NCBI GenBank assembly: GCA_017436575.1
Contig: JAFSCU010000047.1
Coordinates: 1-58,779 of the forward strand
Origin: Oscillospiraceae bacterium
Lineage (GTDB): Bacteria > Bacillota > Clostridia > Oscillospirales > Ruminococcaceae
Length of the DNA stretch: 58,779 bases
Reading direction: 5' to 3'
In this document: piece by piece, positions 4,163 through 57,956 of the stretch
How the letters are laid out: each line of letters starts with the position of its first letter
Numbering within the stretch: position 1 is the first letter of the stretch
Position numbers and translations under genes: made by a program
Notes under the pieces: model-generated
Databases searched by the model: none
Told to the model about the DNA's origin: nothing
The model's input: the letters and a program-made list of their open reading frames with translations, nothing else

Positions 4163-6334
4163 TTAGTTTCTCTCTACGGAGATAACATTTTTTGTCTTTT
4201 TAAGTTTTGCAATAATGCTGTTGAGATGGTCAGTGTTTGTTACACCCACTGTCACGCTCATAGCCAGACGTTTGTCAGATGTCTGTTTGGCGTTCAGCGC
4301 ATAGATTGGCACACGCATATTGCCCAGGGCAGTGGATACTTCTGCCAGTGCCATACCATTGTCCATTGCAACAATTTCCAGACCTGCCTTAAAGTCTTCG
4401 GCGATATCATCTGCCCAGTAGGCTTTTACCCAGCGTGCCCGGTTTTCTTCGTCAATATTTCGGCTCTGTGCATTTACACAGCTCTTTTTATGAATGGAAA
4501 CGCCGAAACCTCTGGTGATAAAGCCCACAATTTCGTCCCCCGGCAGCGGTGAACAGCATTTGGAAAATTTAACCAGACAGTTGTCCAGGCCTTCAACAAT
4601 AACACCGTTGGAACTTTTTGGCTTTTTGATAGGTGCAGTAACAACTTTATTTTCAAGAGGCTGTTCTGCCATTTCTTTTTCTTTCTGCATTTTTGTCCAG
4701 GCTTCCCTTGCTTTGAAAAGCACTTTGGACAGCTGCAGACCGCCATAACCCAGAGCGGCAAACAGTTCTTCTTTTGTATTGAATTTCTGTCTTCTGGCCA
4801 GTTCTTCCACAAATGGGTCGTAATCTTCGTCAGACAGGTTTATCAGGTTGCGGCGCATTTCTTTATCCAGAGCCGCCTTGCCTTCGATAATATTTTCTTC
4901 TTTTCTTTCTTTTTTGAACCAGGAGCGGATTTTGCTCTTGGCTTCGGAAGTGGTAACAATGTTCAGCCAGTCTCGGGACGGACCTTTATCCTTTGGTCCT
5001 GTTACAACTTCTATAATTTCACCGGTGTTAACCTTGTAATCGATGGAAACCATGCGGCCATTGACTTTTGCACCTACCATTCTGTTGCCAACAGCAGAGT
5101 GAATAGCATAGGCAAAGTCGATAACTGTAGCACCGGCAGGCAGATTGATAACGTCACCTTTTGGTGTAAACACATAGATATCTTCCGGTACAAGGTCACT
5201 TTTGATAGATGCCAGCAGTTCGGTGTTGTCGTCTGTGTCCTGCTGGTTTTCCAGCATCTGGCGAACCCAGGCCAGTTTTTCGTCCATATTGTCCTGTCCC
5301 TGCAGACCGGATTTATATTTCCAGTGGGCAGCAATACCGTATTCAGCGGTGTAATGCATATCCCAGGTTCTTATCTGTATTTCAAACGGAATACCGTCAC
5401 GGCCGATAACAGATGTGTGCAGTGACTGGTACATATTTGATTTTGGTGATGAAATGTAATCCTTGAATCGTGATGGAATAGGGCGGAACATATCGTGCAT
5501 CAGCATAAGCGCATTGTAACATTCAGACATATTGTCCAGAATAATGCGCACAGCATAAATATCATAAATGTCGCCTATGTCACGGCCCTGGATATACAGT
5601 TTTCTGTACAGGCCGTAAACGCTTTTTACCCTGCCGAAAACAGTGGCATTTGTCAGCCCGAATTCATGGAGTTTTTCTTTTACACTGCCCACGATGCCGT
5701 CCACCAGTGCCTGGGCATTGATGTCGCGTTCAATAATATGTTTTACTTCGTCATAGCCAATAGGGTCAAGGATACGCAGTGATATGTCCTGCAGTTCATC
5801 CTTGATTTTGCTCATACCAAGGCGGTGTGCAATGGAAGAATAAATATCCATTGTTTCCAGTGCTTTATCGCGCTGTTTCTGTGGTTTCCAGCCTTCATAG
5901 GTACGCATATTGTGCAGGCGGTCGCAGAGCTTGATAATCATTACGCGGATATCCTTGCTCATGGCCAGCAGCATTTTGCGCAGATTTTCAGCCTGCTGTT
6001 CTTCCTGGGTAGACAGTGGAATCTGACCCAGCTTTGTAACGCCGTCAACCAGCAGTGCAACTTCATCATTGAATTCTTTTTCAATTTCTTCCAGTGTCAC
6101 AGCGGTATCTTCCACCACGTCGTGAAGAATGGCCGCAACAATACTGGTGGAATCCATACCCAGTTCAGCCAGAATGGCCGCAACAGACAGCGGATGCTCG
6201 ATATAAGGTTCACCAGTTTTCCTGAACTGTCCATTGTGATTTTTTTCAGCCAGCAGATATGCTTTTTCAATCATTTCCATATCATAGCCTTTACCGGACT
6301 CTTTCAGCATAACTCTCAGTTCATCATATTTCAT
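4163..6334 (-). CDS. relA: Bifunctional (p)ppGpp synthetase/hydrolase RelA/SpoT
   Basis: The 723-residue length matches long Rel proteins. The N-terminal HD hydrolase domain is intact (HDVVEDT near residue 69). It is followed by the synthetase domain (GRVKSVYGLYRK, YQSLHTSVIG), a TGS domain (DIYVFTPKGDVINLP), a zinc-finger/helical region with CCSPLPGDEIVGFITRG, and a C-terminal ACT domain. It makes and degrades the alarmone (p)ppGpp during amino-acid starvation and associates with ribosomes. It lies between recJ and dtd in the conserved clostridial order. Note that a second, very different SpoT-like HD protein is encoded at 27975-29498. Confidence 0.95.
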   Translation of the reverse strand: MKYDELRVMLKESGKGYDMEMIEKAYLLAEKNHNGQFRKTGEPYIEHPLSVAAILAELGMDSTSIVAAILHDVVEDTAVTLEEIEKEFNDEVALLVDGVTKLGQIPLSTQEEQQAENLRKMLLAMSKDIRVMIIKLCDRLHNMRTYEGWKPQKQRDKALETMDIYSSIAHRLGMSKIKDELQDISLRILDPIGYDEVKHIIERDINAQALVDGIVGSVKEKLHEFGLTNATVFGRVKSVYGLYRKLYIQGRDIGDIYDIYAVRIILDNMSECYNALMLMHDMFRPIPSRFKDYISSPKSNMYQSLHTSVIGRDGIPFEIQIRTWDMHYTAEYGIAAHWKYKSGLQGQDNMDEKLAWVRQMLENQQDTDDNTELLASIKSDLVPEDIYVFTPKGDVINLPAGATVIDFAYAIHSAVGNRMVGAKVNGRMVSIDYKVNTGEIIEVVTGPKDKGPSRDWLNIVTTSEAKSKIRSWFKKERKEENIIEGKAALDKEMRRNLINLSDEDYDPFVEELARRQKFNTKEELFAALGYGGLQLSKVLFKAREAWTKMQKEKEMAEQPLENKVVTAPIKKPKSSNGVIVEGLDNCLVKFSKCCSPLPGDEIVGFITRGFGVSIHKKSCVNAQSRNIDEENRARWVKAYWADDIAEDFKAGLEIVAMDNGMALAEVSTALGNMRVPIYALNAKQTSDKRLAMSVTVGVTNTDHLNSIIAKLKKTKNVISVERN

Positions 6335-41539: not shown

Positions 41540-42256
41540 TTAGTCATCTTTAGATTTGTCATCTGATTTTATAGGGAAAGCAATCAAATTTAACGCCTCT
41601 TGAGCAGTCAAAATAATTGAAATATCAGAGATGTCACCGATTTCTAATTCATAATAATCATTTTCTGTAACAGGAGGTTCAATTAAAAAGCGATATTCTT
41701 GTTGATATTCATATTTTTGTCTTTTCCAAAAAGCCACATCTTTGATTCCATTTTTAATAAGTGATGCCCAATACTCAACATTATCTGATGTTTCGTCATA
41801 GTATTTTATATGTCCATGATACCCTGTTATACCATCACGTTTAAGTGCAATGGCTACACGTTGAAGAAAAGCATATCGGTCTGTTATAACCAAGGCAGAA
41901 TCACCAAAATCTAAAAGTTTTCGCTTTTGATCTTCTGAAAATTGAAACTTTTGTGATATGATTTTAGGACTGAACATGCAAAAAACAAAGCAATTGCTAA
42001 AACTTGTCTCAATGAGAGTATCGGTTAGTTCTTGACATACACCTAACTCTGGGACCACGAGATATCCTTCATTAGTATGAACCATTGCATCAAATAAATC
42101 ACCTACTGTATCATCATTAGTATCTTTCTCGCGCTTTCTGAAATAAGCCAATGATTTCAAGTAGATTTTCCCTTTTTGAAAGTAATCTATTCTAGCTTTG
42201 TTTTGAAATTTTATTAGAGGAACTCCATTGGTTTGAATTGACTTTTTAATACACAT
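41540..42256 (-). CDS. Unassigned 238-residue protein (DUF2971-like pattern)
   Basis: The frame is open further upstream, but the extra N-terminal 80 residues are a hydrophobic low-complexity stretch with no ribosome site, so I start at the ATG at 42256 (AAGGGGG upstream). The protein has FQKGKIYLKSLAYFRKRE near residue 25, and QQEYRFLI near residue 200, as in the DUF2971-type proteins, whose function is unknown. No signal peptide is evident. It is the last gene before the second repeated hairpin and the right att-like copy. Confidence 0.5.
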   Translation of the reverse strand: MCIKKSIQTNGVPLIKFQNKARIDYFQKGKIYLKSLAYFRKREKDTNDDTVGDLFDAMVHTNEGYLVVPELGVCQELTDTLIETSFSNCFVFCMFSPKIISQKFQFSEDQKRKLLDFGDSALVITDRYAFLQRVAIALKRDGITGYHGHIKYYDETSDNVEYWASLIKNGIKDVAFWKRQKYEYQQEYRFLIEPPVTENDYYELEIGDISDISIILTAQEALNLIAFPIKSDDKSKDD

Positions 42257-42560
42257 TCGATAATGCCCCCTTAGATGCTGTAGTATAAGTTCAATGGAAA
42301 TATTAATTATTACTATAGTATTAATGAGATTTATTGTGTTTATATTATACAATAAATCATAAAAATATAGAAGAATTATATGTGATGAGTATAAAGTGTT
42401 AAATTTTAGAAAAAATAATATTTTATAACTGTGTTGAAGTTTAATTAGTATTATTAATAGTAGGAGTTTGTCTGCTACATTGACCTTGTAGTGATGGTGC
42501 ATGCCATACGTTCAACACGTGTTTTTGATTTATGAAATATTTAATATAAAGTAAACAGAT

Positions 42561-43055: not shown

Positions 43056-44135
43056 TTAAAAACTTTCTGGTACGAGTGCAAGTTTGTTAATTGATTCATG
43101 CACTCTAACCAGTGCGTCGTATACAGATAAGACATCTTCAGAATCCCATGTTCGCAAAGAGTTTTCGTCAATAACGCCTTTGCTTTCGCGAATAATTTTT
43201 GCAAGCTGTTCTTCGTCAGCAACTGCAACAACAGCCTGAACAGCGGCATTGCTTTGTGCTTTTTTTAGATTAAGAATAAGGCTATCAATAGAGCCTTTTG
43301 ATTGTACTTCGAATACGTAAATGGCTTTTCCCATATTACCAATTTTGGCTTCCCAAACGGCATCAACTACTGCACCTGTCATGATTTTAACTTCAGAACG
43401 GCTATCAAAGCCTAAAAGTTCACCTATAGCTACCAGTTTTTCTTTAATTTCATCGTGAAGGGATTTTGAATCTTTTGCAGTAACTGGTTTCTCTTCTTCG
43501 ATAATCGCAGGTATTTTTGACGTATTCTTTTCGGCTAGTGGTAAAATTTCATCCCACATAAAATAATCTACGGCCAAAAGATCGTAATCCTCAGCACCAG
43601 ATTTTTTAAGTTGCAGAGCAATTTCTTTTGCAATAGCACAAACCTCAGCATATTTTTTGCCAGTATATTGATAATTGTATTTAGGCATATCTGGAATATC
43701 AAGATAGCCGTAGCAAAGAATGGTTGTTTTATTAAAGATCACATATTCCTGCGGGTTTGCGTATGTAAGTAACTCGCTGATAGTGGCAGGCCCCATACCT
43801 TTGATTGATTTAAGGAACAAATCCCATCTGTTTTCAATAGAATTTGTGCCGTAAAGCAAATCAGCTAGCTGCTTTTTAAGAGTAGCAAAACCATTGTCTG
43901 CAATCAATTTATCAACAACATATTTTTTGTTGCCCCAAATAAGCATAGACCAGAGTTTGCTTATATACTCCAAGAATTCATCTTCAGTCATGTTCAAAAG
44001 TTTATCTTTTGTAAAAGACTGGTAATAATCTTTTCGCTCTTTACGTTCTAACCAATTTTCTTTGTAATAGGCAGCATTAGCTTTTTTCTTTTTTGAAAAT
44101 TCTGTAATCGCATAGTTTAATTTTTGAGTATCCAT
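43056..44135 (-). CDS. HhH-containing PD-(D/E)xK-like nuclease
   Basis: The protein of 359 residues has a helix-hairpin-helix DNA-binding motif (KSIKGMGPATISELLTYA, about 109-126) and a C-terminal domain with D258, and E276-V-Q278-S-K280 in VFEVQSKG, a PD-(D/E)xK-like core with an ExQxK variant. It resembles restriction endonuclease-like proteins, though no specific one. It is the last gene of a minus-strand cluster, 164 nt downstream of the PUA-like gene. I start at the ATG at 44135 (AGAGGTT upstream). Function as a DNA cutter is inferred from the motifs. Confidence 0.6.
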   Translation of the reverse strand: MDTQKLNYAITEFSKKKKANAAYYKENWLERKERKDYYQSFTKDKLLNMTEDEFLEYISKLWSMLIWGNKKYVVDKLIADNGFATLKKQLADLLYGTNSIENRWDLFLKSIKGMGPATISELLTYANPQEYVIFNKTTILCYGYLDIPDMPKYNYQYTGKKYAEVCAIAKEIALQLKKSGAEDYDLLAVDYFMWDEILPLAEKNTSKIPAIIEEEKPVTAKDSKSLHDEIKEKLVAIGELLGFDSRSEVKIMTGAVVDAVWEAKIGNMGKAIYVFEVQSKGSIDSLILNLKKAQSNAAVQAVVAVADEEQLAKIIRESKGVIDENSLRTWDSEDVLSVYDALVRVHESINKLALVPESF

Positions 44136-44299
44136 AGTGAACCTCTTATATCGTATAATTATTGAGTATATTATCACATATAGTTTTGCGGTTAGCAAGT
44201 TTTGATATATTAATTGCAGTTAAATTCAATATTTTTAATTGTTTTTCTGTTCTAAAAAGGGTAAATGTTTATTATAGTTAATAATAAATTCGTATTTTA

Positions 44300-45052
44300 T
44301 CATTTCAAAATTTTCTCGATAATATATACATTTTTAATATTCGGTAACACAAACGCATCTCCCTTTGTTTTACCGATTATTACTTTTTGCTGAGGGAATT
44401 TTTCTAAGTTGATAGAAAATTTTGTTGGTTTCCCTGTTTGTTGGATGGTTGCATAGACCACGCAGCCATCTTCAACACGGTCTATTTCTACAGGTCTCTT
44501 TTGCTCAGTTGGTATCGAAGGCTTTGCTTCGGCTGGTTTTATAACAGGTGATGGGGTGTAGATATCGCTAAGGAAATGTGATAATCTTTCTGCGTCTATC
44601 TTGCCTAATGATTTATAAATCAGAGGCAGAATATATTCAACCATTTCTTTTGAAACATCACAAAGATACTGCTGTTTACCCCTGTAAGCAGAAGTGTATG
44701 GGCCATTTGCAGGCTGAATACTATAAAGATGTGGAATATGTGGGGAGACAAGAAAAGGTCTGCTAAGGATAAAATATTCAGTATCAATTCGCCAACCATT
44801 AATATCCCACTCTGAGAAAGACGAACTTGGTCTAGTGGAGCTATAACAGCCATCTTTTGCAATACTAATAGCTACAATATTGCCTTGGTAACTATGAAAA
44901 ATAACGTCTCCCTTTGATACGTCTTTCATAGTTTCATAGCCGGCGTTTTTTCTGTTCCCACTTGCATATTTAGGAGACCACAAAAAGTTTCCAGAACGTT
45001 CCTCATGATATGTTTTGTTTTGGTAAACATAAAAATAATTTTTCCTTGCCAT
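44300..45052 (-). CDS. PUA/EVE-like domain protein, possible modified-base reader
   Basis: The protein has 250 residues. Its N-terminal half shows a PUA-superfamily plan (YHEERSGNFLWSPK, VSKGDVIFHSYQGNIVAIS, FFSEWDINGW-like SFSEWDINGWRI), as in EVE/YTH-like domains that bind modified bases by flipping. The C-terminal part, beyond about residue 165, has a short linker rich in Pro and Glu, and a beta-rich tail. It lies 1 bp downstream of the NUDIX gene. The start at 45052 has AAGGTG upstream; a GTG three codons earlier is possible. Reading of modified bases is inference. Confidence 0.55.
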   Translation of the reverse strand: MARKNYFYVYQNKTYHEERSGNFLWSPKYASGNRKNAGYETMKDVSKGDVIFHSYQGNIVAISIAKDGCYSSTRPSSSFSEWDINGWRIDTEYFILSRPFLVSPHIPHLYSIQPANGPYTSAYRGKQQYLCDVSKEMVEYILPLIYKSLGKIDAERLSHFLSDIYTPSPVIKPAEAKPSIPTEQKRPVEIDRVEDGCVVYATIQQTGKPTKFSINLEKFPQQKVIIGKTKGDAFVLPNIKNVYIIEKILK

Positions 45053-45053
45053 G

Positions 45054-45449
45054 TTATACACCTTTTAAAAACTTAGAAATAAATTCATTATCCGATGGAC
45101 AAAAGTCATAATTATTTGTTTTAGACTTATCTATCCATGCAAAATCGTTATGTTCCAGTTTTTCAGGAACACCTTCAACTATTTCACAGTTAAAGAAAGT
45201 TAAATGAACTGTGAACTCATGATATGTGTGTTCTGCTTCACCTATTGTGTCTTTTACAGAAATAACAGTATTTAACTCTTCTTTGATTTCGCGCCTTAAA
45301 GCCTCTTCTTTGGTTTCTCCTGGCTCAACTTTTCCGCCAGGGAATTCCCACTGGAGAGGATTTTGTTTTTTATTAGCTGGCCTTTGGCATATTAAAAACT
45401 TATCATCTTGCCAAATTACAGCAGCTACAACTTCAACAATTCGGCTCAT
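45054..45449 (-). CDS. NUDIX hydrolase (MutT/CTP pyrophosphohydrolase-like)
   Basis: The 131-residue protein has a complete Nudix box (GGKVEPGETKEEALRREI followed by KEEL), matching GX5EX7REUXEEXGU except for the last position. It would hydrolyse nucleoside diphosphates linked to another group, most likely a modified or oxidised dNTP. It is packed between the PUA-like and the DUF2075-like genes with 1-bp gaps on both sides, so it is co-translated with defence-type proteins rather than standing alone as a housekeeping enzyme. Confidence 0.85.
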   Translation of the reverse strand: MSRIVEVVAAVIWQDDKFLICQRPANKKQNPLQWEFPGGKVEPGETKEEALRREIKEELNTVISVKDTIGEAEHTYHEFTVHLTFFNCEIVEGVPEKLEHNDFAWIDKSKTNNYDFCPSDNEFISKFLKGV

Positions 45450-45450
45450 G

Positions 45451-47427
45451 TTATATCTCCTCTACACCAATTTCTTTTAAGTAGTCATAAATACCGTCAT
45501 ACCATTCTGGATTACGTGTAGCGTCCATACGACTACCTTTTGGAACAAATATTGCCATACCTTGTCTTGCGCGGGTAAGCAATACTCGGTAAGTGTTTTT
45601 AAGATATAATTTGCGTTCGTCAGAGCCGATATTATTCCAACGATTACCTACAAAACTGTTGTAAGTCCACTCGCCATTTACAAAACGGAAATCAGCATCC
45701 CATGCAACAATAGAATAATCCAATTCAAGGCCCTGAATATCAAATTCTGTAACCACATCTTCGAGAGCGTAACTTGAACGAACATCATCTTTGCCGTTTA
45801 AAAACCAATTAGCTACAGATATTTCATTCTTAACAAATATTCCTTCGGGTTTTAATCGCAAAGCGCCACTGCTGCTAAGCAATCCATAACGAGTAGTACC
45901 CTGGCAGTGGTTGCGTACCCATTCTTTTGCTTTGTTTAAATCGCGAGTGATAACAAGTGGATATTTATCTTTTATACGCTGATATAATTCTTGTGCATCA
46001 TCAGTATTAACATCCAAAACAGCTTTAACAAAAGCAGCCAAATCAGGTGTTCTGAAAGATCGAATTGATGTTGCAAGGTGAAGTTTGTCTCGTTCATAGG
46101 TTTGTAACCCATCAATCATACCGTCCCAGCTTCTACCGCGACGATATTCATCATCATTAAGTTGTGGAGTGATATATATATCCCAATGTGGAAATGCACG
46201 TTTTAATGAATCGAACCATTCTGGAAGACCTGCTTCGCCAGTGTTGATTTCTTGACCACCACCTACTAAACAGATGATAACAGCCCAATCCTGATGTCGG
46301 TCCATAGTGCTAATCAAAAATTCCGGTTCGCTATATGGAAAATCTACCACACCTTTTTTAGTTGCCATAAATTTCTGAATCATATCATGTGTCCATGCAC
46401 GCTGAGCTTCATCAAAAATGGCTACTCTTTCAGGTGGAACATTATTGTTGCCTACAAATGAGTCACGATATTTATGAATGATTTGAATAAAAGCAGAAGT
46501 ACTTCTGAGAGCGTCTTTTTTGTTAATTCTCTCACTATTCTGCTTTGCTTGTTCTACCTTGTCCCTGGCTAAAGCTTCTTGTAAAACAGTTACAAGAGGG
46601 AAATTACCTGACAAGAAAACGGCATGTTCTCCTTTTTGTGAATCAGAACGCTGAATTGCAATATTTAAGCCAACCAAAGTTTTACCGGCACCAGGCACAC
46701 CTGTAACAAAGCAGATAGATTTACGTCCATTTGCTTTGCTATGCTCGATAATTCTGTTTATTTCATCTGTTGTAACAGTTAAATTTTCTGCACCTGCATC
46801 ACTTCTTGTAATATCGTGAACATTATGTCCGCTGTATAAAGCCTGGGCAGCTTCTATGATAGTAGGCGTCGGTAAATATTCGGAATTTTCCCAAACGTCG
46901 TATTCAAAGTAATTCTCTGAATAAATAGAAGTTATAGCAGAAATAGCATTCCGTATATTATTTGCGTTACATTTCAATGGTTCAATAATACGTTCTCTCT
47001 CCACAATTTTGTTTTCTACGGAAGGAGCTTTTGTTGAGACCATTATAGGAACTAATAATTTGTTATGACTTTCTTTCTGGAAGTTTCTCAAGTCAAGAGC
47101 GTAATCGTATACCTGGTCATAAGTAGATGGCCTATATTCGGTATCACCACATTTGAACTCCAGTAAAAATACAATATGTTTATAGAGTAAAACAACGTCA
47201 ACACGCTTTCCCATTCTTGGGATTGTGTATTCAAATATAATTTTACCTTCGTTGAGGGATTGTAATTGGGATTTGAGGATTTCTATCTCGGTTTCCCATG
47301 TGTTGTTCTGCTGAATTGTTGTTTCCGCAGACCCATTATTTGTATGAATAATCCCTAAGATTTCATTGCTTGACTGACTCAAAAAATCAGAAATAGATGC
47401 AGAATAATATGATCTTAAATTTCTCAT
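45451..47427 (-). CDS. Nuclease-helicase fusion (DUF2075-type)
   Basis: The 658-residue protein has an N-terminal PD-(D/E)xK-like segment with D77 in RVDVVLLY and E90-F-K92 in LLEFKCG. It is followed by an SF1-like DUF2075 ATPase: Walker A VPGAGKT (244-250), DEAQ box in AIFDEAQRAW, and the terminal LTRARQGMAIFVP motif VI. DUF2075 ATPases are found in many defence loci and are similar to Schlafen-type helicases. It is the second gene of the cluster, 9 bp after XRE, and seems to be the motor of the system. Confidence 0.7.
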   Translation of the reverse strand: MRNLRSYYSASISDFLSQSSNEILGIIHTNNGSAETTIQQNNTWETEIEILKSQLQSLNEGKIIFEYTIPRMGKRVDVVLLYKHIVFLLEFKCGDTEYRPSTYDQVYDYALDLRNFQKESHNKLLVPIMVSTKAPSVENKIVERERIIEPLKCNANNIRNAISAITSIYSENYFEYDVWENSEYLPTPTIIEAAQALYSGHNVHDITRSDAGAENLTVTTDEINRIIEHSKANGRKSICFVTGVPGAGKTLVGLNIAIQRSDSQKGEHAVFLSGNFPLVTVLQEALARDKVEQAKQNSERINKKDALRSTSAFIQIIHKYRDSFVGNNNVPPERVAIFDEAQRAWTHDMIQKFMATKKGVVDFPYSEPEFLISTMDRHQDWAVIICLVGGGQEINTGEAGLPEWFDSLKRAFPHWDIYITPQLNDDEYRRGRSWDGMIDGLQTYERDKLHLATSIRSFRTPDLAAFVKAVLDVNTDDAQELYQRIKDKYPLVITRDLNKAKEWVRNHCQGTTRYGLLSSSGALRLKPEGIFVKNEISVANWFLNGKDDVRSSYALEDVVTEFDIQGLELDYSIVAWDADFRFVNGEWTYNSFVGNRWNNIGSDERKLYLKNTYRVLLTRARQGMAIFVPKGSRMDATRNPEWYDGIYDYLKEIGVEEI

Positions 47428-47436
47428 AATATCCCC

Positions 47437-47679
47437 CTATTTGATTTCTTGTTCAAGGTCGTCAAATAAGTCACTATCAAAGAATTCTCTTACAGAAATA
47501 TTCAGACCATCACAAATTTTCTTAATAGAAACAATACCAGGATTTTGACTTTTCTCATTTAAGATGCTGTAAACAGTGGATGGGGATACACCAGAGATAT
47601 TTGCTAAAGCATTTATAGCAATCCCACGTTCATCACACAGCTCAATAATTCGTTTTTCAACCGCTTCTTTAATCAACAT
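47437..47679 (-). CDS. XRE-family regulator
   Basis: The 80-residue protein is an HTH_3 domain alone: LCDERGIAINALANISGVSPSTVYSILNEKS is the usual helix-turn-helix. It is the first gene of the cluster. The start at 47679 has GAGGAC upstream; a longer frame to 47757 runs through the operator region and is not translated. Three operator-like repeats overlap the promoter region, so it probably represses its own operon and may also touch the divergent DUF262 promoter. Confidence 0.8.
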   Translation of the reverse strand: MLIKEAVEKRIIELCDERGIAINALANISGVSPSTVYSILNEKSQNPGIVSIKKICDGLNISVREFFDSDLFDDLEQEIK

Positions 47680-47696
47680 AATATAGTCCTCATTTG

Positions 47697-47754
47697 CGAT
47701 ATATCGTTGATTATATTGTATAAAAATATGCGACATATCGTGTGGGATATATCG
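47697..47754. promoter_or_regulatory. Three GATATATCG operator repeats
   Basis: CGATATATCG (47697-47706), CGACATATCG (47731-47740) and GGATATATCG (47745-47754) lie between the XRE start and the DUF262 promoter. The first is a perfect palindrome. They are likely binding sites of the XRE protein. Confidence 0.65.
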
Positions 47755-47789
47755 CATATTGCGTATTGTTAATTAATAAAATAGTTCCA

Positions 47790-47849: not shown

Positions 47850-49673
47850 ATGTTAGTAGAAAAATACAATCCAAATTCTTTAAGTGTAAGTGCCATATTG
47901 GGATTAATCTCATCAGGTAATATTGCTATTCCAGAGATTCAGCGCCCATTTGTATGGAAGAAAACACAGGTAAGGGATTTACTGGATTCATTATACAAAG
48001 GTTATCCGACTGGGTATTTGATTATTTGGAAAAATCCAAATGTCAAATTGAAGGATGGTTCTGTTTCATCTGGCAAAAAAATTCTTATCGATGGTCAACA
48101 GCGTGTAACTGCACTTATGACTGCCATTGCAGGTATTCCTGTTATTAATAGCGAATATAAAAAAGAACGTATAAAAATTGCGTTCAATCCGTTTGAAGCG
48201 CTTTCAGAAGATAAAGATGCTGAAATCTTCGCTGTACAGGATCAGAGTCATTTGAAAGGTAAAAAATGGATACCTGACGTAGCGGAAATCTTTAAAAACG
48301 ATTTCTCTGTTTTCAGTTTTATCAATAAATATTGTTCAGATAATCCGGAAATGCAGCCTGAAACTTTGGATAAAATTCTCATCAATTTACGTTCAATTGG
48401 TAACAGGCTTATTGGTGTTATAGAACTGTCCGATAGCTTGGATATAGATATTGTAACTGATATTTTTATCCGCATTAACTCCAAGGGGACAGCATTAAGT
48501 CAAGGTGACTTTGTTATGTCTAAGATTGCTTCCGATGAAAATTTTGGCGGCAATATGTTAAGAAAAGCTATAGATTATTTTGCACACCTGTGCGTAGAAC
48601 CTTCCTTTTATAATTACATAAAAGAAAATGATCATGATTTTGCCGAATCTGAATATATGCAGAAATTGGCGTGGCTTAAGGATGACAAAGAAACAGTATA
48701 CGATCCTGAATGCGATGATATACTTAGAGTTGCATTTATGCATATGTACCCTAGAGCAAAACTTGCTGATTTAGTAAGCTTGCTTTCTGGCAGAAACTTT
48801 GAAACAAGAGAATACAACATAGAAATCACAGAAGATACCTATGCAAAATTGAAGCAAGGCGTACTTAATGTAATTAACAAAAATAACTTTAATCAGTTCA
48901 TGTTGGCTATTAGAGGCGCCGGTTTTATTTCAAGCAAAATGGTTAATTCTTATATGGCTTTGGATTTTGCATATGCATTGTATCTTCGTCTTGCTATTAG
49001 TAAAGAAGTTTCCGTAAGCGAAATTAAAAGAGTTGTACAAAAATGGTATGTATTGTCTGTCTTAACAGGCAGATATAGTTCATCACCAGAGACAGCTTTT
49101 TACAGAGATATTAGAAAAATAAACGAAGTTGGTGTTGTTAAGACTTTAGAGGATATTGAAGCCGCCACGTTATCAGATAATTTCTGGGATGTAAAAGTTG
49201 TACAGGATTTATCGTATACCTCTACTATTAATCCGACTTACCTCGTATATCTTGCAGCACAGGTTGCTGGTAATGATATATCATTGCTTTCCAATAATAT
49301 AACTGTAAAGGACCTGATTGAAATCGCAGGCGATGTTCATCATATATTTCCTAAAGCTTATCTCAAAGTAAATGGTTATAGTAAAAATACGTATAATCAG
49401 GAAGCAAACTATGCTTACCTTGACACACAGGTAAATAAGTCGATAGGCAAAAAAGCTCCGTGTGAATATTTTGCAGAAGCTCTTAAGCAGTGTGAAACCA
49501 AAATAATTACTTGTGGTTCAATTACCGATATAAAAGCACTGAAAGACAACCTCGCTGTTAACTGTGTACCGTTTGAAGCATGCTATATGACACATAACGA
49601 TTATAACATTTTCCTTGAAAAACGCCGTGAACTTATGGCAAAGAAGATAAAAGAATACTATTACAATTTATAA
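47850..49673 (+). CDS. DUF262-HNH protein (GmrSD-like)
   Basis: The 607-residue protein has a DUF262 ParB/Srx-fold NTPase-like N-terminus (IPEIQRPFVW 27-36 and DGQQR 81-85) and an HNH-like DUF1524 motif near the C-terminus (VHHIFPKAYL, followed by conserved Asn/Lys). GmrSD, with these two domains in one or two chains, is a type IV restriction enzyme that cuts sugar-modified hydroxymethylcytosine DNA, using NTP. Here both are in one chain. The gene is divergent from the XRE-headed cluster and shares a 170-bp control region with it. Confidence 0.75.
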   Translation: MLVEKYNPNSLSVSAILGLISSGNIAIPEIQRPFVWKKTQVRDLLDSLYKGYPTGYLIIWKNPNVKLKDGSVSSGKKILIDGQQRVTALMTAIAGIPVINSEYKKERIKIAFNPFEALSEDKDAEIFAVQDQSHLKGKKWIPDVAEIFKNDFSVFSFINKYCSDNPEMQPETLDKILINLRSIGNRLIGVIELSDSLDIDIVTDIFIRINSKGTALSQGDFVMSKIASDENFGGNMLRKAIDYFAHLCVEPSFYNYIKENDHDFAESEYMQKLAWLKDDKETVYDPECDDILRVAFMHMYPRAKLADLVSLLSGRNFETREYNIEITEDTYAKLKQGVLNVINKNNFNQFMLAIRGAGFISSKMVNSYMALDFAYALYLRLAISKEVSVSEIKRVVQKWYVLSVLTGRYSSSPETAFYRDIRKINEVGVVKTLEDIEAATLSDNFWDVKVVQDLSYTSTINPTYLVYLAAQVAGNDISLLSNNITVKDLIEIAGDVHHIFPKAYLKVNGYSKNTYNQEANYAYLDTQVNKSIGKKAPCEYFAEALKQCETKIITCGSITDIKALKDNLAVNCVPFEACYMTHNDYNIFLEKRRELMAKKIKEYYYNL

Positions 49674-49955: not shown

Positions 49956-51125
49956 ATGAAACTTGAATCAAATAGAGCGGGAACAATAATTAACACAACA
50001 ACAGGCTATAGAGCTTTTGTTCCAGCGAAACTGCCACCATCTCCAGAAATTAATATAGATAGTGAAATGCAAAAATTACTTTCGCTAGCTGATAGAAAAT
50101 TAGGGAGATTAGATGGAATAACCCAGATATTACCAAATCCTGAACTGTTTGTAGCGATGTATGTGAAGAAAGAGGCGGTATTGAGTGCACAGATTGAAGG
50201 TACACAAGCTTCTCTTGTAGATGTATTGAACATTCCAACAGAAGATATGGCTGAAGATTATTCTCAAAACGATGTTAAAGAAGTAGTAAATTATGTAAAA
50301 GCTATGTATTGGGGGATGGAAAAACTAAATACATTACCTCTCAGTTTAAGATTAATCCGTGAAATACACAAAGTATTACTAAAAGATGTACGTGGTGCTA
50401 ATAAGAATCCTGGTGAATTCAGGAAAACGCAAAACTGGATAGGCCCTCAAGGATGTACATTAAATACTGCTACATTCGTCCCTCCGACAGTGGATGAGAT
50501 GGAAAAGGCAATGGGCGATCTTGAGCAATTCATTTATGAGGAAGATAGTATTCCAGCATTAATTAAAATCGCATTAATCCATGCACAATTTGAGACTATT
50601 CACCCATTTTTAGATGGTAATGGCCGAATGGGACGATTATTAATAACATTTTGGTTATGCCAACAAGAAATTCTTAGTGAACCTTTACTGTATTTGAGTT
50701 ATTATTTCAAGCAAAATCGAACAGAATATTATGATAGATTGATGTCTGTTAGAATTAAGGGTGACTGGGAAGGTTGGATTAAATTTTTTCTTAAAGGAGT
50801 TGCGGATGTTTCTGATGAAGCCACTGAATCTGCAAAAAACATTATAGCTCTTAGAACACACTACTCAGCGTTGCTTTTTGAAAAAGACAAAGGCAATGGC
50901 AATTATGCTGCATTATTGAATCATTTATTTGAAAATCCAATAGTTACTAAAAAAAGTATTTCAGAAAGCCTGGAGATATCTCTTCCTACTGCTGGAACAA
51001 TTGTAGATTTATTCTGTGATATGGGAATTTTAAAAGATGTCACACCAGATAAAAAAAGATATAAAGTATATGAATTCAAAGAATATATTAATATTTTGGA
51101 AAAGGGCACAGAAATCATACATTAA
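49956..51125 (+). CDS. Fic family adenylyltransferase-like protein
   Basis: The 389-residue protein has a class II inhibitory helix motif, SAQIEG (77-82), then the Fic core HPFLDGNGRMGRLL with catalytic His216, and a C-terminal winged-helix region (GISESLEISLPTAGT-like KKSISESLEISLPTAGT). Fic enzymes transfer AMP from ATP to target protein hydroxyls. The N-terminal autoinhibitory helix means that no separate antitoxin is needed. The gene has its own promoter and terminator, so it is not part of the XRE cluster. Confidence 0.87.
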   Translation: MKLESNRAGTIINTTTGYRAFVPAKLPPSPEINIDSEMQKLLSLADRKLGRLDGITQILPNPELFVAMYVKKEAVLSAQIEGTQASLVDVLNIPTEDMAEDYSQNDVKEVVNYVKAMYWGMEKLNTLPLSLRLIREIHKVLLKDVRGANKNPGEFRKTQNWIGPQGCTLNTATFVPPTVDEMEKAMGDLEQFIYEEDSIPALIKIALIHAQFETIHPFLDGNGRMGRLLITFWLCQQEILSEPLLYLSYYFKQNRTEYYDRLMSVRIKGDWEGWIKFFLKGVADVSDEATESAKNIIALRTHYSALLFEKDKGNGNYAALLNHLFENPIVTKKSISESLEISLPTAGTIVDLFCDMGILKDVTPDKKRYKVYEFKEYINILEKGTEIIH

Positions 51126-53562: not shown

Positions 53563-54963
53563 ATGGCAGTTACCTCAATATGGCCAATCAAAGGCAGGAT
53601 TGACGGGGTGATAAACTATGCCCGCAATCCCGAAAAAACTACAGAAAAAGCAATGGCGGAAGTAATGGCAATGCACGCAGTTAAAAATGTAATGGAATAT
53701 ACTGCCAATGATATTAAAACAGAACAGCGAAAATATGTGACCGGCATTAACTGCAGTGAAGAAACGGCTGCATCTGAATTTATGAACACAAAAATTCTGT
53801 GGAACAAAACCAGTGGCAGACAGTGTTATCACGGGTATCAGAGTTTTGCCCAGGATGAAGTAACCGCTGAAATTGCCCACGAGATAGGAGTAAAGCTGGC
53901 AGAAAGACTGTGGGGAGACAGATTCGAAGTACTGGTAGCAACCCATCTGAACACAGGTCACTATCACTCACATTTTGTAATCAATTCTGTTTCCTTTGCA
54001 GACGGGTATAAGTTCTACAACTCTCCCGAGGATTACAAAAAGATGAAACAGATTTCTGATGAATTGTGCAGAGAATATGGTTTGTCAGTAATCACAGACC
54101 CCAGCGGTAAATCAAAAAGCTATGCTGAGCGAAAAGCAGAAAAGGCTGGCCAGCCGACCATAAGAGATACTGTCCGCAGGGATATTGATGCGGCAATAAA
54201 AGCATCGGTTACCCAGCAACAGTTTATCAGGGCAATGGAAATGATGGGGTATCAGTTCAAACTGTATGACACTAACGGGGAAAGACTGAAATATCCAGCC
54301 ATAAAACCACCAGGAGCGAAAGGGTATTTCCGCTTTCATAAACTGGGTGCTGATTATGAACTGCCGATGATTGTGCAGCGAATCAAACGCAACTGGACAC
54401 GAGAAGAGCCTTTCCCGGATATGTATGTGCAGAAGAAATATTCCAAAGGAAAACTAAACGGCAGTTTTGAAGCTGTGTTAAAGAAAAACAGCCTGTACGG
54501 CCTGTATATGCGATACAAATATGAACTGATAAAAATCAAAAAGCACCCCACATCTGTCCGCAGTATACCCATGTCTATGAGAGAAGATATTGTGAAGATG
54601 GACAGCTTTATGAAACAGTCGGAAACATTGGGTAAATACAGGATAAAAACTATAGGTCAGCTTACCGATACAAAGGCATTGCTTACAGAGAAAATCAGCC
54701 AGCTGACGGCAGACAGAAATGATTTAAGGAACGCTTTAAGGCGTACACAAAGGGCAGGAAATGAGCCTGAAACAGCAAAACTCAAAGAACAGATAACTGA
54801 TATATCCAATCAGATAAAGGCATTACGAAAGGAAATAGACTGCCTTGAAAAGGTGGAACAGCGCTCTGCACAGGTGGCAGAAAATATCAAAGTCATAACT
54901 GCCGACAGGGCAGAATTCAACGGAAGAAATGCAAAAACAAGAGACGAAAGGAGATATAGATAA
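53563..54963 (+). CDS. MOB relaxase (MobA/VirD2-like)
   Basis: The 466-residue protein has an N-terminal relaxase domain: Tyr19 in INYARNPEKT is the likely nicking residue, and the metal motif is HLNTGHYHSH (H128, H133, H135). The rest (from about residue 230) carries a region with basic segments and a coiled coil (about 375-450). It nicks oriT and stays covalently bound to lead DNA into a recipient, using a conjugation channel supplied by another element because none is encoded here. Confidence 0.87.
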   Translation: MAVTSIWPIKGRIDGVINYARNPEKTTEKAMAEVMAMHAVKNVMEYTANDIKTEQRKYVTGINCSEETAASEFMNTKILWNKTSGRQCYHGYQSFAQDEVTAEIAHEIGVKLAERLWGDRFEVLVATHLNTGHYHSHFVINSVSFADGYKFYNSPEDYKKMKQISDELCREYGLSVITDPSGKSKSYAERKAEKAGQPTIRDTVRRDIDAAIKASVTQQQFIRAMEMMGYQFKLYDTNGERLKYPAIKPPGAKGYFRFHKLGADYELPMIVQRIKRNWTREEPFPDMYVQKKYSKGKLNGSFEAVLKKNSLYGLYMRYKYELIKIKKHPTSVRSIPMSMREDIVKMDSFMKQSETLGKYRIKTIGQLTDTKALLTEKISQLTADRNDLRNALRRTQRAGNEPETAKLKEQITDISNQIKALRKEIDCLEKVEQRSAQVAENIKVITADRAEFNGRNAKTRDERRYR

Positions 54964-55105
54964 TGACACAACCCCAAGAGAAAACAAAGAACTGATACAT
55001 ATTTCCCAAGTGAAAATCCCAATAGGTGGGGTGTATATGACACTTGAACAGATACAGGAAAAAGCCAGAAAGGAGAAAGAAAATGAAAAAATTCGAAAAG
55101 ATTGA
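54929..55105 (+). CDS. Possible small ORF between relaxase and parB
   Basis: A 58-codon frame overlaps the end of the relaxase gene by 35 bp and the start of the parB-like gene by 23 bp. It has a charged C-terminus (QIQEKARKEKENEKIRKD). An internal ATG with GGTGGGG upstream (55037) gives a shorter version. It may be a real small protein of the mob unit, or a chance frame. Confidence 0.3.
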   Translation: MQKQETKGDIDNDTTPRENKELIHISQVKIPIGGVYMTLEQIQEKARKEKENEKIRKD

Positions 55106-56000
55106 TTTAGGCTTGAAAGAAGCCTATGAAGAACTGTTTATGAACGATGAAGAAAGAATAATAAACCGTTCACCAAGGGTGCTGGATATTGAGATATCAC
55201 AGATTGATGATTTTGAAGACCATCCGTTTAAAGTAAAGGACGATGAAGATATGGAAAAGCTGATGGAAAGCATAGCTACATACGGAGTGCTGACACCAGC
55301 AATAGTGCGAGAAAAGGAAGATGGCAGATATGAGATGGTATCCGGTCACAGAAGAAAACACGCCTGTGAAAGGCTGGGTATGGAAACAATACCTGCAGTG
55401 GTAAAAGAACTGACACGAGAAGAAGCCATAATAGCAATGACAGACAGCAATATTCAAAGAGAAAACATACTGCCAAGCGAAAAAGCCTGGGCGTATAAAA
55501 TGAAGATGGAAGCTATAAAACATCAGGGAAAAACTTTGGGCCCACTGGGCCCAAAGTGGTCGGCAACTAAAATATCAACTGAAAACAATGAGAGTGAAAC
55601 TCAAGTTAAACGCTATATCCGCCTTACAAACCTAATCCCACAGCTTTTGCAGATGGTTGATGAAGGCAAGATTGCCTTCAGACCTGCGGTTGAGATTTCT
55701 TATCTGACTGAAGAACAGCAGGTTGACCTGCTGGAAACAATGGAATCTGCAGACTGCACACCTTCACTGGCACAGGCAATTAAATTCAAAGAACTTAGCC
55801 GTGACAACAAGCTGGATAAAGAAACAATATCTGCAATGCTGGCTCAGCCAAAGGCAAATCAAAGGGAGAAAATCACTTTCAGACGAGAAGAACTGGACAA
55901 ATACTTCCCTAAAAATATTACTGAAAACGATATCCGCAACAAAATCTTAAACCTGCTGGAACAGGACAGAAAACGCAGACTTAACCGAGATGCAAGATAG
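55083..56000 (+). CDS. ParB/RepB/Spo0J-like partition protein
   Basis: The 305-residue protein has a ParB N-terminal domain with VREKEDGRYEMVSGHRR (the GxxR/CTPase-type motif region), ALVKELTREEAIIAM-like VKELTREEAIIAMTDSNIQRENILPSE, then an HTH-like region (AFRPAVEISYLTEEQQ). ParB proteins bind parS and CTP. No ParA is encoded next to it. The repeat array at 51.4-52.1 kb is an obvious candidate for its binding site. AAAGGAG precedes the ATG. Confidence 0.82.
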   Translation: MKKFEKIDLGLKEAYEELFMNDEERIINRSPRVLDIEISQIDDFEDHPFKVKDDEDMEKLMESIATYGVLTPAIVREKEDGRYEMVSGHRRKHACERLGMETIPAVVKELTREEAIIAMTDSNIQRENILPSEKAWAYKMKMEAIKHQGKTLGPLGPKWSATKISTENNESETQVKRYIRLTNLIPQLLQMVDEGKIAFRPAVEISYLTEEQQVDLLETMESADCTPSLAQAIKFKELSRDNKLDKETISAMLAQPKANQREKITFRREELDKYFPKNITENDIRNKILNLLEQDRKRRLNRDAR

Positions 56001-56008
56001 GAGGGTAT

Positions 56009-57956
<1,948 letters not shown>

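Follow-up and report, generated by a model that had tools for sequence, protein, structure and literature searches.

A four-gene operon (44300-47679, minus strand) on the 58,779-nt contig JAFSCU010000047.1 of Oscillospiraceae bacterium assembly GCA_017436575.1 encodes an XRE regulator, a nuclease-helicase that we refer to as HEL, a Nudix hydrolase and an EVE reader. The whole contig is called the window, and all coordinates are those of the window. We tentatively propose, at a little short of an even chance, that the operon is a modification-dependent (type IV-like) restriction module distributed over several proteins, in which the Nudix enzyme acts on 5-modified dCTP and protects the host. 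The direct results behind this proposal are the gene content, the motifs and their conservation, the recurrence of the Nudix gene with modification-dependent nucleases, and the host assembly's lack of a match to the methyltransferase family PF00145. At the level of sequence, the Pfam, PADLOC and phmmer matches and the residue conservation in HEL are far above chance, and a predicted reader of 5-substituted cytosine, a nuclease-helicase and a NudG relative fit a single theme.

Gene content of the operon and predicted protein functions

The genes follow one another in the order XRE, HEL, Nudix, EVE (Table 1), with 9 bp between XRE and HEL and 1 bp at each of the two following junctions. An earlier note on this DNA had described five minus-strand genes as a single system, counting an HhH-motif protein behind the EVE gene as the fifth. 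The gene calls agree with it on all five genes and on the 1-bp gaps among the PUA/EVE-like, Nudix and DUF2075 genes, and the operators that it placed upstream of XRE correspond to palindromic repeats, here regarded as putative operators, in two stretches. The longer (47724-47760) contains an inverted repeat (47725-47739/47746-47760, 93%) and the shorter (47690-47706) a further copy. As one system the five genes did not hold up: the HhH gene lies 164 bp behind EVE, was not met together with the others in the loci examined elsewhere, and is probably not part of the operon.

Table 1. Features of the operon and its immediate surroundings in the window
Feature	Position	Strand	Basis
HhH-motif protein, C-terminal D...E-x-Q stretch; neighbour probably outside the operon	43056..44135	-	gap, no co-occurrence
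EVE (PUA superfamily) reader, 250 aa, extra C-terminal stretch of ~90 aa	44300..45052	-	phmmer to VcaM4I
NudG-like Nudix hydrolase, 131 aa	45054..45449	-	PF14815/PF00293, PADLOC PDC-S07
HEL, N-terminal PD-(D/E)xK signature and SLFN-g3/DUF2075 helicase, 658 aa	45451..47427	-	PF09848, PDC-S41
XRE (Cro/C1-type) regulator, first operon gene, 80 aa	47437..47679	-	PF13443, E 2.7e-10
Putative XRE operators, GCGATATATCG-like palindromic repeats	47690..47760	.	repeat search
GmrSD_N (DUF262) protein, HHIFPK motif at residue 497; divergent neighbour	47850..49673	+	PF03235, E 1.3e-32

The designation of the EVE protein (P0002) as a PUA/EVE-like reader found no counterpart in Pfam, where no family matched at E values up to 1 and the gathering score of PF01878 was not reached, but it is borne out by a phmmer match of residues 5-146 to the EVE domain of VcaM4I (PDB 6yex, E 8.5e-18), on which its membership in the VcaM4I-type EVE group rests. 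All seven pocket residues compared are retained, T14, E18, W25, P27, W82, Q127 and Y129 corresponding to VcaM4I T11, E15, W22, P24, W82, Q128 and Y130. In VcaM4I, a flipped 5-methylcytosine (5mC) or 5-hydroxymethylcytosine (5hmC) is held by T11, E15, W22, P24, W82 and Y130 among others, and Q128 fills the stack (PMC7897488). The pocket of the window protein appears suited to a modified cytosine, and the gene probably recognises altered cytosine in viral DNA. Viral contigs, in a search that sees close relatives only, held no relative of P0001, P0002 or P0004, and no relative of P0002 was found among phages.

HEL carries a helicase domain of the SLFN-g3 family (PF09848, E 5.3e-80), of which we take DUF2075, a name also used in the record annotation, to be an older name. 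It matches nearly the whole PADLOC model PDC-S41 (positions 3-653 of 657, E 1.2e-281). For residue conservation the window protein was aligned with those of 60 of the 69 HEL loci described below, which matched over more than 600 residues. The PD-(D/E)xK-like motif that had been read in the helicase (D77, E90 and K92) is unchanged in 61 of 61 sequences, as are Q105 of the same nuclease signature and the Walker residues G246, G248, K249, T250, D339 and E340.

The Nudix protein likewise covers nearly all of a PADLOC model, PDC-S07 (positions 3-129 of 135, E 1.9e-46). The Nudix consensus ends in G-U; the box described earlier as complete retains the core GX5EX7REUXEE at residues 39-58, but N60-T61 replaces the closing pair. 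Matches to NudG/CTP pyrophosphohydrolase were obtained in the PDB (2rrk, E 8.7e-19) and among NCBIfam models (PRK10546, E 1.1e-28). 2RRK, E. coli NudG, is listed elsewhere as a 5-methyl-dCTP pyrophosphatase (PMC5389931). As judged from these matches the protein is a NudG relative and at most a candidate orthologue. The host assembly contains one PDC-S07 match (E up to 1e-35) and seven PF00293 matches, and no DUF3427 match.

A type IV restriction system would combine modified-base reading and a nuclease domain with the absence of a cognate methyltransferase, in a host without the target mark. The EVE match and pocket residues point to the former activity, and the motifs of HEL to the nuclease. 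There is no methyltransferase among the operon genes, and the host assembly gave no match to PF00145, the comparison of the host mark covering C5-cytosine methylation; 10 of 14 control genomes have such a match.

Recurrence of the Nudix gene beside modification-dependent nucleases

A scan of GTDB genomes with HEL yielded 69 HEL loci, some of which end at contig borders, so that partners may be missed. In 10 of these loci a Nudix gene, and in four an EVE gene, is found no more than 100 bp from HEL; in two more (L023 and L066) Nudix stands farther away. HEL and Nudix overlap by 4 bp in nine loci (L025, L061-L064, L067-L069 and L104). L104, which came from the class search, has XRE, HEL and Nudix in the window order with identities of 74, 55 and 50%. 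Outside the window, EVE, HEL and Nudix came together in L024 alone. The class sample of 391 genomes, the window's own included, contained HEL in five, EVE in four and the HhH gene in eight, low counts that mark these genes as rare and patchy. Further neighbours upstream of HEL were DUF4420 and ASCH proteins. HEL also stands directly behind a KwaB-like gene (L003), JetD (L064; L065 by cluster) and McrC (L008), and seems to join the ends of other defence operons.

The Nudix family PDC-S07 was present in 112 of the 398 genomes of the phylum sample. Its surroundings were compared at 115 listed places besides the window's own, on 114 stretches, some ended by contig borders. Clustering of the neighbours without markers gave a SauUSI-like cluster as the largest (21 loci), a GGDEF-type cluster, so called from one scanned member, as the second (12) and an SRA-like HNH cluster as the third (8). 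When the Nudix gene was forced into the gene calls, a modification-dependent gene was adjacent or fused to it in 35 of the 115 places, representing 27 family groups (SauUSI-like 21, SRA-like HNH 8, fused 5, EVE 1). The markers were a handful of queries, so this number may be an undercount. The earlier suggestion that a modified-base reader, a Nudix enzyme and a nuclease-helicase belong together is rendered plausible by these recurrent architectures. Gene offset within the same Nudix family served as the control for enrichment: modification-dependent genes accounted for 32 of 225 genes at offset ±1, 3 of 219 at ±2, 2 of 195 at ±3 and 1 of 142 at ±4, counts that leave out a HEL gene at -2 and two GmrSD genes at ±3, and ±1 differed from ±2 with a Fisher p of 1.7e-7. 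The other frequent neighbours (GGDEF, HD domain, rhodanese, nitroreductase, EF-G and glycosyl hydrolase-like) look like ordinary synteny or housekeeping. On plasmids the Nudix gene was found in 30 records (E up to 1e-12); among the 16 examined, 12 have a modification-dependent neighbour or fusion and four do not.

The logic of the operon, as far as sequence can tell, is recurrent in architectures other than its own. Members of the SauUSI, MrcB_N and NERD families recognise or target modified DNA, or have cutting activity. One SauUSI-like neighbour is accompanied by McrC (L211), the SauUSI-like architecture of L126 is split over two frames, and the frame beside Nudix on an S. aureus plasmid record has PLDc and helicase domains without DUF3427. 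Among the remaining arrangements, L102 has EVE and Nudix followed after ~160 bp by a NERD-domain helicase on the same strand, L205 has Nudix, an SRA-like HNH gene and DUF2075 tightly packed, and in L128 Nudix heads a row of MrcB_N, MazG-like and DUF2075 genes. Seven Priestia plasmids carry a PDC-S07-type Nudix beside EVE-HNH (three), SRA-like HNH (three) or MrcB_N-MazG-like-DUF2075 (one, the row of L128). A Selenomonas plasmid (L092), closely matched by L182 (97% over 5.2 kb), has a Nudix-EVE pair with GmrSD_N on the other strand. The pair is followed by a nucleoside 2-deoxyribosyltransferase (5622-6092; PF05014, E 4e-15), which could take away the modified monophosphate left by Nudix. The name SRA-like is provisional: it comes from the L205 protein, the single one with a SAD_SRA match, which stays below cut-off (E 0.0075), and from a relative whose HNH part matches EcoKMcrA and ScoMcrA entries.

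At five of the 115 places (L255, L257, L262, L270 and L271) the SRA-like HNH and Nudix parts are joined in single proteins, detected by phmmer with E values from 2e-10 to 2e-25. The Pfam scan, which covered three of them and not L262 and L271, returned HNH and NUDIX in L255 and L257 and NUDIX only in L270. The HNH motif is seemingly altered in L270 and L271. A Paenibacillus plasmid protein (L125, 2921-4384) resembles these fusions.

A tree of 131 Nudix domains, built on few alignment columns, requires on its starred branches at least 11 changes of a SauUSI-like partner, 7 of SRA-like HNH, 4 of HEL and 2 of EVE, where a change may be a gain or a loss. The fused proteins form one group. HEL locus L025 and SauUSI-like locus L233 fall within one starred group of three, and the Priestia EVE-HNH, SRA-like HNH and MrcB_N loci share another.

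Proposed mechanism and alternative explanations

In the mechanism that we propose, the XRE protein would repress the operon via the palindromes in front of its gene. The EVE protein would flip out and bind a 5-substituted cytosine (5mC or 5hmC) in incoming DNA and would recruit or license HEL, whose helicase motor would travel along the DNA while its PD-(D/E)xK domain cuts. The Nudix enzyme would hydrolyse 5-substituted dCTP to the monophosphate. Its part would be mainly protective: during infection or the salvage of modified DNA it would keep 5-modified cytosine out of host DNA, which would stay unmodified, so that the reader would not direct the nuclease against self. The binding specificity, the substrate of the Nudix enzyme, an interaction of EVE with HEL and the protection of self are our inferences.

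A broader version, possible but doubtful, is that this class of Nudix enzymes is a nucleotide-pool immunity factor for modification-dependent nucleases, setting self against non-self at the level of precursors by removing 5-modified dCTP. Relatives of the small enzyme would then have been recruited repeatedly by unrelated SauUSI-like, SRA-like HNH, EVE-HNH, MrcB_N-DUF2075 and EVE-HEL systems, and fused to some of them. If true, the recurring and fusing Nudix would add a second, metabolic component to modification-dependent restriction, would place in the nucleotide pool a way of telling self from non-self that can be tested, and would give PDC-S07 a role; type IV nucleases would be predicted to become toxic once modified nucleotides enter the pool.

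The same sequence evidence would also fit a weapon. The Nudix enzyme might destroy the 5-hydroxymethyl-dCTP pool of a phage, whose DNA synthesis would stall or whose unmodified DNA would be cut by ordinary restriction, with EVE and HEL attacking phage DNA that is still modified. Other nucleotide enzymes near Nudix, namely the MazG-like protein of L128 and, by annotation, of L126, and the Selenomonas deoxyribosyltransferase, favour this account, which we consider fairly unlikely. Less modification takes away the target of the partner nuclease, however, and the two activities would oppose each other unless an ordinary restriction-modification system is present. Since a Nudix enzyme that removes the modification also removes what the reader recognises, the pairing with modification-dependent nucleases is explained no less well by self-sanitation, and we regard the safeguard role as more likely than the weapon role. 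The absence of a C5-methyltransferase does not discriminate between the two roles.

A number of observations weigh against the protective module, and several of them would be accommodated if HEL (PDC-S41) were a stand-alone defence gene, with Nudix and EVE beside it through island mixing and no mechanistic coupling. HEL has many different neighbours, among them KwaB, McrC, JetD and ordinary genes, which makes island hitch-hiking possible, and relaxase, ParB-like and serine recombinase genes lie in the same window. Most of the 69 HEL loci show neither EVE nor Nudix (59 have no adjacent Nudix and 65 no adjacent EVE, with some loci ended by contig borders), which suggests that HEL is able to function by itself or beside different partners. 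The same gene order in other genomes, to which the earlier note had looked, was not met: XRE-HEL-Nudix-EVE occurred in no other genome among those searched. The Nudix genes of the four Bacteroidota HEL-Nudix pairs included in the tree fall into a single clade, which implies few independent events. The EVE proteins of HEL loci L019 and L047 lack T14 and W25, and in L024 the similarity of the EVE frame to the window protein starts at residue 58, so that the pocket residues of the N-terminal part are missing and the frame may be a remnant. This last frame weighs somewhat against the protective module and in favour of an unlinked island. The latter nevertheless appears unlikely to us in view of the 1-bp spacing in the window, the 4-bp HEL/Nudix overlaps in nine other loci, the SRA-like-HNH-Nudix fusions, the sharp enrichment at offset ±1 and the several separate partner changes that are forced on the Nudix tree. 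Viewed from the nuclease, the association is loose: of the 25 listed plasmid records (of 87) with an SRA-like HNH relative, 4 also belong to the 30 records with Nudix, as do 4 of the 16 records that match EVE, which suggests that Nudix is optional. In addition, 6 of the 21 Nudix-SauUSI-like pairs are on opposite strands. Absence of a C5-methyltransferase is common in genomes with a Nudix-type IV pair and is not a rule, as 6 of the 26 tested among 34 such genomes have a PF00145 methyltransferase (E up to 1e-20).

The remaining contrary evidence concerns the Nudix enzyme, whose role might be general sanitation or signalling, with 8-oxo-dGTP, CTP, a signalling nucleotide or an RNA cap as its substrate in place of modified cytosine. 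Its best PDB match is 'Mutator mutT protein' (5x1x, E 1.2e-24), its best NCBIfam match is a general Nudix model, and it missed the equivalog cut-off of NudG (PRK10546; 99.8 versus 156 bits). PDC-S07 matches occur in 5 of the 14 control genomes, E. coli included, and 80 of the 115 PDC-S07 places have no recognised restriction neighbour; together these counts indicate that the family is partly housekeeping. A different substrate would not account for an enzyme that is repeatedly paired with, or fused to, readers of modified DNA, and we judge it quite unlikely. Of the accounts considered, we retain the protective module as our working proposal.

Neighbouring genes and comparison with known systems

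The HhH protein had no Pfam match over cut-off. Of the PD-(D/E)xK motif attributed to it, D258 and E276 are present, but the second element reads E276-V-Q278 and not ExK (E-I-H in the homologue of L090); it may represent an ExQ variant of this nuclease type. Seven further genomes of the class sample gave homologues, and the 69 HEL loci gave none. The stretches examined, namely wider flanks for six of the seven genomes (G128 being represented by the short locus L085) and three of four plasmid matches, contained no HEL, EVE or Nudix gene, and in L095 the HhH gene lies between HsdS and HamA. It looks like a separate defence-island gene. Further members of the family are carried by a Monoglobus plasmid (80.5% identity) and by plasmids of archaea, and DNA methyltransferase genes are near the homologue in the two archaeal plasmids examined. 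Adjoining the HhH gene in the window is a gene for a 243-residue protein (41540-42271, minus strand), which had no Pfam match over cut-off and no PADLOC or NCBIfam match at E values up to 0.1. Profile searches of the PDB returned a zeta toxin and a portion of potassium-channel entries for A2 and 'HC34 WT apo' for A3, and a search with the single sequence P0001 returned 'HC34 WT apo' and two entries named Dokki_15; we place no interpretation on these matches.

On the other side of the operon, a GmrSD_N gene absent from the earlier note's finding begins 170 bp upstream of XRE on the opposite strand. A protein 55% identical to it adjoins the Nudix-EVE pair of Selenomonas pSRC2, which makes it a possible companion of the operon. 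Elsewhere, GmrSD_N was seen beside a Nudix-EVE pair in no locus but L092 and the closely matching L182; relatives of it occur on 20 plasmid records, most of them outside the examined set. A Fic protein with a Fic_N domain (49956-51125, plus strand) adjoins the GmrSD-like gene, and the relaxase, ParB-like and serine recombinase genes follow at 53563-57956 (plus strand); the right-hand part of the window resembles a mobilisable element that has integrated.

The earlier statement that the combination is not a named system stands for the whole, within the searches made, but HEL and Nudix are listed by PADLOC. There, PDC-S41 and PDC-S07 are two separate candidates whose models carry no description, the 'S' presumably denoting a single-gene candidate. 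PDC-S41 was nowhere named in the literature searched, beyond which lie many subscription papers, and the same literature contained no general statement linking Nudix with type IV systems, no such fusion and no EVE-Nudix-DUF2075 set. In a rumen survey, PDC-S07 is counted as a defence candidate on its own with 1672 occurrences (PMC13356809). A study of S. suis places PDC-S07 within 20 genes of a type IV restriction-modification system in 23 of 23 occurrences, and its main text does not mention Nudix (PMC12813430). A figure legend in another paper notes that MutT homologues stand beside SauUSI homologues in Streptococcus (PMC7641849).

The closest likenesses of the operon are to modification-dependent enzymes. 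VcaM4I, an EVE-HNH enzyme, has the same checked pocket residues as the window EVE reader; it carries its HNH nuclease in the same protein, whereas the window EVE protein has no HNH and cutting would fall to the separate nuclease-helicase. A Nudix gene of the PDC-S07 type adjoins three EVE-HNH genes of Priestia, like the Nudix-EVE adjacency of the window. The GmrSD family is represented by the GmrSD_N domain of the divergent neighbour, outside the operon. The SauUSI-like type IV enzyme (PLDc-helicase-DUF3427) is, as in the window, a helicase-nuclease with an adjacent PDC-S07/MutT gene, but it is one polypeptide with a different nuclease and a different presumed reader domain. The operon is best called a predicted variant form of type IV restriction.

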